A stretch of 64,000 nt of DNA, from positions 107,348-171,347 of the forward strand of contig JAKQEQ010000153.1 in NCBI GenBank assembly GCA_029556545.1, written 5' to 3'. Positions 31,686-35,352 of the stretch are shown one piece after another. The position numbers and the translations under genes are program-made. A model generated the notes under the pieces. That model had not been told where the DNA came from and did not search any database. It saw only the letters and a list, made by a program, of their open reading frames with translations. Position 1 is the stretch's first letter; every line of letters starts with the position of its first letter. Source of the stretch: Candidatus Hydrogenedentota bacterium. Its GTDB lineage: Bacteria; Hydrogenedentota; Hydrogenedentia; Hydrogenedentales; JAGMZX01.

Positions 31686-32618
31686 ATGTTTCGTCGCGTC
31701 ATGTTTCGAGTTTCATTGGTTCTGCTTGTTGGCCTGACAGTGACGGCCATCGCGCAGGAGAAGCCCTACGATCAGGTCGTCGACCACGTTTACGCGACCA
31801 TCGACGGCGCGGATTTCCACATGGATGTCTTTGTCCCGAACGGGAAGGCGCGCAAGGATTTCTACGCGCCCAACGACAACGGGTTCGGCCTCGGGATCGT
31901 GGATGTGGCCAGCGGCGCGTGGCACTCGGACCGCGGCAAGATCAGGGACCACGAACAGTCGCAGGTCTATGCGATATTCTGCGCGCGCGGTTACACGGTG
32001 TTCGCGGTGCGGCCCGGCACGCGGCCCCGCTATACCGCGAAGGAGATGGTCGCTCACATCAAGCATGCGATCCGCGATATCAAAGCGAACGCGGACCAGT
32101 GGAGGATCGACCCGGACCGTCTGGGCATCGTGGGCGCGTCCGCGGGCGGGCACCTGGCGTTGCTCACCGTGCTGACGGCCGAGGAGGGGGACCCGAGCGC
32201 CGCGGACGCCCTGTTGCGGCAGGATACGCGAGTGAAGGCGGCGGCGGTATTCTTCCCGCCAACGGATTTTCTGGACTGGCCGGGGAAGGACCTGAACGGC
32301 GTGGCGGAGTTGGTGGGCGACATTCTGTTCAAGGGCGGCGCGGCGGGGCGCAGCCTCGAAGAAGTGCGCGTCGAGGCCGAGGCCATCTCGCCGCGGCGGC
32401 TCGTGCGCGGCAAGACCCCGCCGATGCTGTTCGCTCACGGGGACGCGGACCCGCTCGTGCCGCTGCAGCAGTCGAAGATCATGGTCGAGGCGCTGCGCCA
32501 GGCCGGCAACGAAGCCGATCTAATCGTCAAGGAAGGCGGCGGCCATCCCTGGATCACTATTCCCTTCGAGGTCATCCAGTTCGCCGACTTTATGGACAAG
32601 CACCTGGCCGGCAAGTGA
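31686..32618 (+). CDS. Secreted alpha/beta hydrolase
   Basis: 310 residues with an N-terminal signal peptide (hydrophobic 8-22, cleavage after AIA). The nucleophile elbow GASAGG (about 159), an Asp in HGDADPLVP and a His in GGGHPW form the triad of the BD-FAE/acetyl-esterase type. It probably deacylates a carbohydrate or xenobiotic ester outside the cytoplasm. GGGAGAGAAGAAC precedes the ATG at 31686. A diverged copy of its last 47 codons lies 1067 bases downstream. Confidence 0.85.
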   Translation: MFRRVMFRVSLVLLVGLTVTAIAQEKPYDQVVDHVYATIDGADFHMDVFVPNGKARKDFYAPNDNGFGLGIVDVASGAWHSDRGKIRDHEQSQVYAIFCARGYTVFAVRPGTRPRYTAKEMVAHIKHAIRDIKANADQWRIDPDRLGIVGASAGGHLALLTVLTAEEGDPSAADALLRQDTRVKAAAVFFPPTDFLDWPGKDLNGVAELVGDILFKGGAAGRSLEEVRVEAEAISPRRLVRGKTPPMLFAHGDADPLVPLQQSKIMVEALRQAGNEADLIVKEGGGHPWITIPFEVIQFADFMDKHLAGK

Positions 32619-32650
32619 CACCGGCGCGGCTTGCATCACGCGCGCGACTC
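32475..32650 (+). repeat. Left copy of a 176-bp direct repeat (3' end of hydrolase gene)
   Basis: It covers the last 47 codons and stop of the hydrolase plus about 32 bases beyond. It aligns without a gap to 33542-33717 at a constant offset of 1067 bases. By hand, 119 of 144 coding positions match. Confidence 0.85.
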
Positions 32651-32711
32651 GCCTGCGCATTCGTTGTATTGGAGGGGCGCGTCGTGCGGTGAATTCAGTC
32701 GCGAGGGTCAT

Positions 32712-32740
32712 TTGACAGGGCCGTGTTGTTGGGGTATACT
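32712..32740 (+). promoter_or_regulatory. Consensus sigma-70-type promoter
   Basis: TTGACA (32712-32717), 17-bp spacer, TATACT (32735-32740): nearly perfect, 94 bases before the NYN start codon. It lies inside the flanked cassette, so the cassette carries its own promoter. Confidence 0.8.
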
Positions 32741-32834
32741 GACGTTACCATCTACTCCCCGCGGGACTTGCCGAAAGGCCTCTTGCGGGGTTATCAATTT
32801 AGCGGGCAATGAGATCGATTTCCGGGGAGGGACC

Positions 32835-33467
32835 ATGCTCACTGAGCCCAGTGTGAAGCGGGCCTACGCATTTGTTGACGGTCAGAATCTCTTCTACGCG
32901 GCCAAGAAGGCCTTCGGTTACTCGTATCCGAACTACGACCCGAGTGCGCTCGCCCGCGCTGTCTGCATCTGAAAAGGCTGGCGTCTGGACGGCATCTATT
33001 TCTATACGGGCATACCACGCATTCGGGACGACGCGCACTGGAACCATTTCTGGACGGCCAAATTGCGCAGTATGGGTAAGCGCGGGATTCATACGTTCAC
33101 ACGGCATTTGCATTATCGCAATCAGAGCATAGTTCTCCCGGACGGCAGGGAATCCACGGTTCTTGTCGGCCAGGAGAAGGGCATTGACATTCGAATCGCC
33201 CTTGATGTAGTGCGCATGGCCCGTGAAGATCGCTTTGACGTGGCCATCTTGTTCAGTCAGGACCAAGACCTGTCAGAGGTCGCCACGGAAGTTCGCAGGA
33301 TTGCCAAGGCACAGGACCGCTGGATCAAGATAGCCTGCGCGTTTCCGGTCAGTCCGACCTACGCCAATGAGCGTGGCATCGACCGCACGGATTGGATATC
33401 CATTGATCGCGCGACGTACAACGCGTGCCTCGATCCGAATGACTACAGATTGAAATCAAGAGGCTGA
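32835..33467 (+). pseudogene. NYN-domain nuclease gene interrupted by an in-frame TGA
   Basis: The ATG at 32835 (GGGGAGGG upstream) opens a frame running to 33467 with a single TGA at 32970-32972, after codon 45. Both halves are typical of NYN (PIN-like) RNases: AYAFVDGQNLFYA with the catalytic Asp, then FYTGIPR, WNHFW, QEKGIDIRIALDVV and the acidic FSQDQDLSE, ending in RATYNACLD. The reading frame is otherwise perfect, which argues for a recent nonsense change, a read error, or recoding. Many window genes end in TGA, so a reassigned code is unlikely. An internal restart after the TGA would lack the first catalytic Asp. It looks less GC-rich than its neighbours. Confidence 0.85.
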
Positions 33468-33541
33468 ATAGACGAATTCCGGGTGCCTCAAGTGGACGAG
33501 GAAGACGCGGAATCGCGTCGTGGGGGCATTGTGGTGTCTTG

Positions 33542-33685
33542 AAGATGATGGTGACGGCGCTGCGTCAGGGGGGCAACGACGCTGACCCAATCGTAAAGGA
33601 AGGCGGCGGTCATCCCTGGATCACGGTATCCTTCGAGGTTATCCAGTTCGCGGATTTTATGGACAAGCACTTGGTCGGAAAATAA
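33542..33685 (+). pseudogene. 3'-end fragment of an alpha/beta hydrolase gene
   Basis: 47 codons plus TAA, in frame, matching the C-terminus of the 31686-32618 hydrolase at 39 of 47 residues, including GGGHPWIT and FADFMDKHL. It has no start, no upstream part and a different stop codon. Most base differences are at third positions, so it came from a homologous functional gene rather than a fresh duplication. The matching DNA continues to about 33717. Confidence 0.85.
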
Positions 33686-33792
33686 CAGCGGCGCGGCTTG
33701 CATCGCGCGCGCGGCGCGTCTACACTAAAGTTTCACGCGGGGAAGAAGTGTAGTCCGTCGTTTCTCTCGTGGTTTGGAAGAGGGATTCCGTA

Positions 33793-35352
33793 ATGCTTGC
33801 TCGATTGGCGCCATGGACGGCCTTTATGCTTGCGGCGGTTTTCGCGGTTGGCCATAACTATTACATCCAGCAGACGTTCTGGATGCCCGACGATGCCTAC
33901 ATCTCGATGCGGTACGCGGAGAATTTCGCGGCGGGCAAGGGGCTGGTTTACAACGAGGGCGAGCGGGTCGAGGGTTACACGACATTCCTCTGGGTGGTGC
34001 TGTTAGGCGGAGGCGCCTTCGTCGGGCTGGACCTCGAGGCCCTCGCGCAGGCGATCGGCATCACCTTTAGTCTTGGCGCGCTGTTCCTCGTTTCGCGGGC
34101 GCACCGTTTCGCACCGGGGCTGTCGCCCTGGAGTTCCGCGCTCGCCGTACTGATGATGGGCACGTGCGGCGTATTCACGACCTGGCTCATGGCGGGTATG
34201 GAGACGCCGCTCGTGGCGTTCTGGTGCGTTCTGGCGGTGCTGCTCAACGAGCAGGTGCGGGCACAACCGCGCGCGCCGGGGCTGCTCGTGCTGTTGGGCG
34301 TGTGTTGCGCGCTTGCGGCGATGACGCGGCCCAACATGGGACTGGTCTTCGTCGTGCTGCTGCTTGACCGGTTCATCGACGCGGTGCGGACGCGCAACGC
34401 CTCATTTCTCTTGTTCCCGCTTACATTCGGCGCATTATTCGGCGCCTATTTCCTCTGGCGGTATACGTATTACGGCTTTCTCTTGCCGAATACGTTCTAC
34501 GTGAAGGTGGGCGGCACCTGGGCGCAGGCGATGCGCGGCATGGATTACACGGGCCGTTTCCTTGGGGCGACGTTCTTCATCGCGGCCTCGGCGCTAGCCG
34601 CATACCTCATTCCGAAACGGGCGTTTGGGGCGCCGGGTCTGCGGCGCGTGCTGCTGACGCTACTCACGGTCCACGCCGCCTACGTCGTGATCGTCGGCGG
34701 AGATTTCATGCCGTCGTTTCGCTTCTTCGCATCGGTGTTCCCGCTCCTGGCCCTGCTCGCGGCGATGAGCGTGGCGGCGATGCGCCCGCATGCCGCGGTG
34801 GCGCTCATTTTCGTCGCGCTCGCGCATAACGGCATGATGCTGGTCAGTCATCGCGACATCGGCGACCGCGCGGGCAAGGGCAACGTCGGCCGGTACGGGA
34901 AGCGCGTTGGGCTGTGGCTGCGGGAGCACGCGCCGCCGGACGCGCTGCTCGCCACGAATACGGCGGGCAGCATCCCCTTCTTTTCGAAATTGCCCGCGAT
35001 CGACATGTTGGGGCTCTGCGACGCCGTCATCGCCCATCGAGACTTGCCGGTGGGCCGCGGCACGCCGGGACACGAAAAGGGCGACGGGCGCTATGTGCTG
35101 TCGCGCAAACCGGACTACATCCAGTTCGGGTCCGCATCGGGCTCGGTGCGGCCCGTGTTCCGCGGCGACCGGGAAATCTTTCAGGCGGCGGAATTCAAGC
35201 GCGACTATGTGTCGCGGACCTACGCGATCGGCGGCGGCGGGGTGGTGCGGCTGTACGTGCGCAAGCCGGCGGCGGGCGGCAAACCGTTGAGCGCGGTCTC
35301 TTCCGAAGAGACCGCAGCGCGGAAAAAAGAAGTGTGGAAGCCGTCCGGCTAG
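33793..35352 (+). CDS. Polytopic glycosyltransferase (GT-C, PMT/ArnT-like)
   Basis: 519 residues with roughly 9-10 membrane helices. The first periplasmic loop holds the GT-C metal-binding acid pair in MPDDAYISMRYAENFA (about 31-46), followed by GLVYNEGERVEGYTTFLW. This places it in the family of lipid-linked-sugar-dependent mannosyl- or arabinosyltransferases. A soluble C-terminal domain (about 360-505) follows. The ATG at 33793 is preferred over the GTG at 33769 because AGAGGGA is upstream. A 23-bp hairpin (35293-35315) is embedded near the C-terminus. Acceptor unknown. Confidence 0.8.
   Translation: MLARLAPWTAFMLAAVFAVGHNYYIQQTFWMPDDAYISMRYAENFAAGKGLVYNEGERVEGYTTFLWVVLLGGGAFVGLDLEALAQAIGITFSLGALFLVSRAHRFAPGLSPWSSALAVLMMGTCGVFTTWLMAGMETPLVAFWCVLAVLLNEQVRAQPRAPGLLVLLGVCCALAAMTRPNMGLVFVVLLLDRFIDAVRTRNASFLLFPLTFGALFGAYFLWRYTYYGFLLPNTFYVKVGGTWAQAMRGMDYTGRFLGATFFIAASALAAYLIPKRAFGAPGLRRVLLTLLTVHAAYVVIVGGDFMPSFRFFASVFPLLALLAAMSVAAMRPHAAVALIFVALAHNGMMLVSHRDIGDRAGKGNVGRYGKRVGLWLREHAPPDALLATNTAGSIPFFSKLPAIDMLGLCDAVIAHRDLPVGRGTPGHEKGDGRYVLSRKPDYIQFGSASGSVRPVFRGDREIFQAAEFKRDYVSRTYAIGGGGVVRLYVRKPAAGGKPLSAVSSEETAARKKEVWKPSG
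35293..35315. repeat. 10-bp stem, CCG-loop palindrome inside a coding end
   Basis: GCGGTCTCTT / AAGAGACCGC around a CCG loop, translated in frame as part of the glycosyltransferase C-terminus (about residues 501-508). Same architecture as the other short palindromes in this window. Confidence 0.6.

Follow-up and report, generated by a model that had tools for sequence, protein, structure and literature searches.

An NYN nuclease gene between two diverged copies of a hydrolase 3' end: a candidate integrase-less cassette in a Hydrogenedentota genome

How does a nuclease gene come to lie directly behind an intact hydrolase gene, with a second, diverged copy of that gene's end on its far side? 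The question is raised by a locus in the window (the whole stretch of 64,000 nucleotides analysed here, positions 107348-171347 of a MAG contig), the features of which are collected in Table 1.

Table 1. Features of the hydrolase-NYN locus, in positions of the window
Feature	Position	Strand	Evidence or remark
Alpha/beta hydrolase gene (BD-FAE type), intact	31686..32618	+	Pfam BD-FAE, 2.4e-30; last 48 codons form repeat copy 1
Direct repeat copy 1: hydrolase 3' end and ~36 nt past its stop	32474..32654	+	Repeat search; three-way comparison with G001
Inserted cassette, 886 bp	32655..33540	+	Missing from G001 (BLASTN)
Sigma-70-like promoter, TTGACA-17-TATACT	32712..32740	+	1 found, 0.5 expected; placement recurs in relatives
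Conserved hairpin RNA	32750..32799	+	Model search of the window's genome, 63 bits
NYN-family nuclease gene, 210 codons, interrupted	32835..33467	+	Pfam NYN, E = 5.7e-10
In-frame TGA at NYN codon 46	32970..32972	+	Relatives have varied sense codons at that place
Direct repeat copy 2: orphan hydrolase 3' end, runs into the native downstream region	33541..33721	+	Repeat search
Native downstream gene, membrane protein	33793..35352	+	Directly 3' of the hydrolase in G001; no match in a Pfam search

The two gene ends and the empty site in a congener

The first-pass annotation had described an ungapped recurrence of the hydrolase end 1067 bases downstream. A repeat search recovered it, with figures within a few bases of the earlier ones, as a single ungapped pair of 181 nt with 83% identity at a spacing of 1067. 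Recomputation over the last 48 codons returned the earlier values exactly, with 119 of 144 coding bases (25 differences) and 39 of 47 residues in common. These differences are distributed as 4/5/16 over codon positions 1, 2 and 3, and 16 of them are synonymous and 9 are not. Since the next best direct repeat within 7 kb is only 29 nt long at 76% identity, chance is ruled out as the source of the pair. Between the two copies there is no integrase, as had been noted before, and no other sizeable gene besides the NYN ORF. The G+C content of the cassette region is 55-59%, compared with up to 65-71% in the hydrolase and downstream genes.

A comparison with related genomes, which had been proposed as the check on an insertion, was carried out on 119 relatives, among which G001 is the sole congener. 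In G001 the hydrolase gene adjoins the same next gene (BLASTN), that is, the site is empty, and the NYN gene has no match anywhere in the G001 genome. The locus is collinear on both sides, with DNA identities of 85% for the upstream gene, 83% for the hydrolase gene and 74% for the downstream gene; the hydrolase protein is 82% identical to its orthologue at the syntenic locus. The distance from stop to next start is 107 nt from copy 2 in the window and 111 nt from the hydrolase in G001. Because the G001 locus is empty and collinear and lacks the NYN gene, the cassette is an insertion and copy 2 occupies the native position. The sole congener thus lacks the arrangement, and the orphan fragment is no recent tandem copy, so that both observations expected to speak against the earlier proposal turned out otherwise.

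Over the 144 nt, copy 1 and copy 2 differ at 25 sites, copy 1 and G001 at 24, and copy 2 and G001 at 37. In the three-way comparison 17 changes are specific to copy 2 (4/4/9 by codon position), 4 to copy 1 and 16 to G001 (3/1/12), and at 4 sites all three differ. As copy 1 is about as distant from copy 2 (25/144) as from G001 (24/144), and differs mostly at third positions, import of an end is a better account than recent duplication on the spot, and a recent tandem copy is, on these distances, excluded as the origin of the repeat. The earlier interpretation is thus supported in part; however, the foreign copy may be copy 1, the reverse of what had been assumed. Copy 2 runs on into the native downstream gene and so looks like the displaced native end, and the end in copy 1 looks like the imported one. 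The three sequences are compatible with three histories: import of copy 1 and partial decay of copy 2, import of copy 2, or an older duplication that later decayed.

The NYN gene and its leader RNA

The promoter and the NYN gene that had been placed between the copies are both present, but the gene is broken by an in-frame TGA, which had been overlooked, as had the hairpin. Because of this stop at codon 46 the ORF encodes no full nuclease as it stands. With the stop read as X, the ORF matches PF01936 at 40.3 bits (cut-off 24.2) and is 55-63% identical to its relatives; D15, D118, D143 and D145, invariant in 51 relatives, are also present in it. The predicted fold of one relative, L059 (AlphaFold2, pLDDT 92.6), has the NYN protein 2qip (VPA0982) as its best PDB match (E = 5.1e-8). 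By sequence no match was obtained in the PDB, and no NCBIfam model was found for the subfamily. The family has a distant PADLOC match to HEC-09 (1e-15). It shares the Pfam NYN domain, the conserved acidic residues and the fold with NYN/LabA-like nucleases and HEC-09, and differs from them in forming a separate subfamily of 205 aa whose genes have a leader RNA of their own. The HEC-09 match, together with occasional restriction-modification genes among the neighbours of NYN, suggests a conflict role for the cargo. Single in-frame stops were also seen in otherwise full-length NYN genes of L115 and L117 (codon 71; the same stop in two Caldilineaceae MAGs), L134 (codon 25) and L200.

The window hairpin has a 10-bp stem, a CUU/C internal loop and a GCC-GAAA-GGC cap, followed by UUAUCAAUU, with a minimum free energy of -23.2 kcal/mol (z = -3.7). 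A hairpin of ~50 nt lies between promoter and NYN gene in 84 of 85 loci (83 above the cut-off automatically, and L100 as a visible variant), with the consensus ACTTGCTCCCCGCCCGACACGCCGnAAGGCCTCGGGCGGGGTTATTTTTT. Tested on the sequences of 60 relatives, the 13 pairs of the structure are intact in 97.8% of cells, and for 10 of them at least one relative carries changes in both partners; no measure was equalled in any of 500 shuffles, and slid versions score far lower. A search against Rfam (4227 models) gave no match for the window or for ten relatives, so this covarying RNA in front of NYN is absent from that collection.

With its GC-rich stem and U-run the hairpin resembles an intrinsic terminator, and it probably limits read-through into the NYN gene; perhaps it is also a target or partner of the nuclease. 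Since loci of this NYN subfamily almost always have the RNA, the two probably work together. In L062, L065 and L075 the NYN start directly follows the U-run, so that a ribosome-binding site would fall inside the 3' arm of the hairpin. A second terminator-like hairpin was seen by eye between the conserved RNA and the NYN start in L130, L094 and L112. Type III toxin-antitoxin systems (ToxIN type) carry a tandem-repeat antitoxin RNA upstream of a ToxN-like nuclease gene. The order of promoter, structured RNA with a terminator-like hairpin and nuclease gene is common to both, but the present unit has a single hairpin, no tandem RNA repeats and an NYN rather than a ToxN fold, and was not assigned to that type.

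Searching 386 genomes with the hairpin model located it in 17; in most of them NYN accompanies it, in a few it does not. Hairpins lacking NYN were seen in L181, L182, L189 and L192, with (by eye) a GH127-like gene, a ThpR/LigT-like gene, a ParD/ParE-like pair and an unknown ORF 3' of a Cas6-like gene, respectively, behind them. In L188 (G096:C4:390460-393509, RNA on the minus strand at 1501-1550) the hairpin is joined directly to the last ~20 NYN codons, followed by hsdS. Read from this order, L188 is a deletion scar that retained the RNA, and RNAs without NYN may accordingly be relics; the other reading of them, that the RNA serves different cargo, is weakened by the same locus.

Bracketing repeats and spread of the NYN unit

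Bracketing was defined as direct repeats scoring >=30 on both sides of the NYN unit. By this measure 12 of 66 NYN loci are bracketed, compared with 5 of 472 offset control blocks (Fisher P = 1.7e-8) and with 4 of 161 other ORFs of the same loci. L130, with a dispersed palindromic repeat, and L097, with local repeats, were removed, leaving 10 of 64 testable loci, bracketed by imperfect repeats, against 2-3 control loci; the loci were chosen as best matches, so these frequencies are rough.

Bracketing repeats were found in the window and in about 11 other loci. Where their source could be recognised, the arms correspond to the 3' end of an adjoining gene or to part of a tRNA, with an intact gene on one side, an orphan end on the other and no integrase between. 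The intact partner is an isocitrate/isopropylmalate dehydrogenase gene (Iso_dh) in L057, a permease-like gene in L069, a CN hydrolase gene (CN_hydrolase) in L070, a superoxide dismutase gene (SOD) in L116 and, in convergent orientation, UxuA in L111 and a COX1-like gene in L119. The partner is tRNA-Ser in L072 and tRNA-Arg in L075; L074 and L121 have bracketing repeats with no partner gene named. A later set added L147 (168 nt, 92%, at the 3' end of a TlpA-like gene) and L143 (arms of 50 nt, 100% identical). For L147, empty sites with the uninterrupted arrangement are present in G418, G419 and G422. The locus is not the isolated curiosity for which it had been taken: several phyla have the same layout, at genes unrelated to the hydrolase and at tRNAs, and this recurrence indicates a repeated kind of insertion, not a one-off accident.

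The arms lie 766-1380 bp apart, of which NYN takes up 621-651 bp, and in most cases only ~20-40 bp separate the NYN stop from the right arm. Repeat lengths (47-181 nt) and identities (79-100%) differ between loci. When the coding arms are pooled, the differences fall as 20/18/52 by codon position (52 of 90 at third positions; P = 1.7e-6 versus even), or ~21/16/53 with L070 in its correct frame. The ratio of synonymous to other differences is 12/2 in L057, 5/0 in L069 and 6/2 in L111. In these three loci and the window the copies thus differ mostly synonymously, which argues that one copy came from elsewhere. In L147 the differences are 3/6/4 by codon position, without synonymous bias. The repeats of L116, L121 and the window show no clear identical core at the gene-internal edge. 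In L075, the stretch between the tRNA copies contains a fragment that looks, by eye, like the N-terminus of an integrase; it had no match in Pfam.

No repeat could be detected in about 85% of NYN loci, and an additional phylum contributed four testable loci, none of them bracketed. The NYN relatives from the same order, L033-L039, have no repeats of >=30 nt, which at first pointed to a one-off event. None of the isolate genomes checked has bracketing repeats; the flanked cases come from MAGs or from genomes other than those isolates, with one congener for the window.

NYN relatives at ~60-70% identity occur in at least 257 candidate stretches of genome contigs, 80 of which were retrieved, from at least 15 phyla, including Candidatus lineages, Pseudomonadota, Planctomycetota, Verrucomicrobiota and Chloroflexota. 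The distribution is patchy, with the unit in 14 of 386 diverse genomes and, within two single phyla, in 5 of 47 and 6 of 95 genomes. Related units in different phyla have DNA in common from the promoter to just past the stop only, and their flanks differ. These blocks look like the ends of the unit; they were not counted as proof of its boundaries because identities of 80-90% may reflect only constraint. In three Gemmatimonadota MAGs (L056, L061 and L064) ~3 kb of left flank and NYN are collinear at ~90%, and the right flanks diverge just past the NYN stop.

Among viral contigs a single protein query found nothing, and an alignment query gave 5 matches, only two of them close, on short contigs; phage records contained no NYN relative. 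On plasmids there is one close match, from Methylobacterium bullatum, in which NYN has no flanking repeats. Only 2 of the 98 genes adjoining NYN are integrases.

Possible routes of entry

The explanation that we favour, holding it at slightly better than even, is that a non-autonomous integrative cassette of ~0.8-1.4 kb, lacking an integrase, entered behind the hydrolase gene and brought a homologous 3' end with it. The unit would consist of the promoter, the hairpin RNA and then the NYN nuclease gene, and would have arrived joined to the hydrolase 3' end of a related organism. Recombination within the common gene end, most likely by a tyrosine-type integrase acting in trans, would then have left the hydrolase gene complete but with an imported tail (copy 1), followed by the cassette and, beyond it, the native tail in a displaced position (copy 2), if the direction is read correctly. 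The cargo would be a ribonuclease, its expression presumably restrained by the terminator-like hairpin, and may serve as a defence or addiction gene that favours retention of the cassette. As the first-pass annotation had recognised, the layout mimics regeneration of a gene's 3' end.

Established for this explanation are the empty site in the congener, the bracketing repeats, their recurrence at unrelated gene ends and tRNAs, the largely synonymous divergence of the copies in four cases, and the conserved RNA. Against it count that copy 1, not copy 2, is nearer to G001, that the changes specific to copy 2 also fit decay in place, that most loci lack a repeat, that L116, L121 and the window lack a clear core, and that L147 is not synonymous-biased; no recombinase for the cassette was identified. 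Such a cassette would be very small, would reach at least 15 phyla and would carry no recombinase itself, yet it would have come to lie repeatedly at the ends of host genes, leaving the genes intact.

Several known elements offer partial precedents. Phage 21 and e14 integrate in icd and supply a replacement 3' end of this protein-coding gene; the replaced gene end is the likeness, but unlike the cassette they have their own integrase and many genes. CIMEs are segments that keep att sites and lack integration or transfer genes (PMC5704250). The cassette likewise is a segment bounded by gene-end repeats with no such genes inside; however, the known CIMEs are decayed ICEs or IMEs, whereas here the segment measures 0.8-1.4 kb and holds one recurrent gene with its own RNA. 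No parent ICE or IME and no integrase was found for it, the only candidate being the integrase-like remnant of L075.

In fungal mitochondrial mORFs, a foreign C-terminus arrives together with a nuclease ORF, and the native C-terminus is found ~1 kb downstream; hybrids of atp6, atp9, cox2 and nad3 are described, and the differences in one copy are mostly synonymous (PMC3630166). Both have a nuclease ORF between two host-gene 3' ends, and in the cassette too one end would be foreign and the native end displaced. The present cassette differs in being bacterial, in having an NYN (PIN-like) rather than a LAGLIDADG or GIY-YIG nuclease, in its structured RNA and in its many unrelated targets, tRNAs included. 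The mORF-type layout is present, and foreign origin of one end is supported in L057, L069 and L111; in the window either copy may be the foreign one. The cassette can be said to resemble both CIMEs and mORFs.

The same likeness prompts the first alternative, which we consider unlikely: that NYN cleaves genes lacking the cassette close to their 3' end, whereupon the donor gene end is copied in by repair together with the cassette, and the native end stays downstream. NYN is the sole gene between the copies, the layout equals that of the fungal mORFs (PMC3630166), the NYN stop lies close to the right arm in most cases, and PIN-like nucleases include DNA flap endonucleases, of which T5 FEN is a weak fold match to the NYN model (E = 6e-3). 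Characterised NYN proteins, however, are ribonucleases, and relatives are Mn-dependent (PMC11346440); the targets are too varied for one site-specific endonuclease, and closely related units have different flanks. Somewhat less probable is that the promoter-RNA-NYN unit (~0.8 kb) is self-propagating, NYN, possibly with the RNA, driving insertion at varied gene 3' ends and bringing a spare target end with it; such a unit would be a bacterial counterpart of mORFs and a new minimal mobile element.

We give a similarly low chance to a single capture, in which one end of the donor DNA paired with the hydrolase and its other end was attached by illegitimate joining, the NYN unit being a passenger. 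This would account for the window taken alone, where the imported end is diverged and both an integrase and a core sequence are missing, but unrelated genes in different phyla have the layout around the NYN unit too, far more often than the controls do. Less probable again is an insertion that duplicated a long part of the host gene's end, with copy 2 decaying afterwards. The copy-2-specific changes in the window are only mildly biased to third positions (4/4/9), the L147 copies differ without such bias (3/6/4), and the L143 arms are 100% identical over 50 bp. However, L057, L069 and L111 differ almost only synonymously, as separately functional genes would, the repeat lengths range from 47 to 181 nt, and in the window copy 1 is as distant from copy 2 as from G001. 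A transposon with target-site duplication, which leaves short repeats of fixed length that are identical at birth, was rejected because the repeats vary between loci in both length and identity.

The flanking-repeat signature offers a route to other integrase-less cassettes that annotation has overlooked.

A separate observation concerns the TlpA gene end. On the reverse strand of L172 (G262:C88), at 4.2-5.1 kb, a HigB/HigA-like toxin-antitoxin pair (recognised by eye) lies just beyond the orphan TlpA 3' end, so that insertions may have used this gene end more than once.
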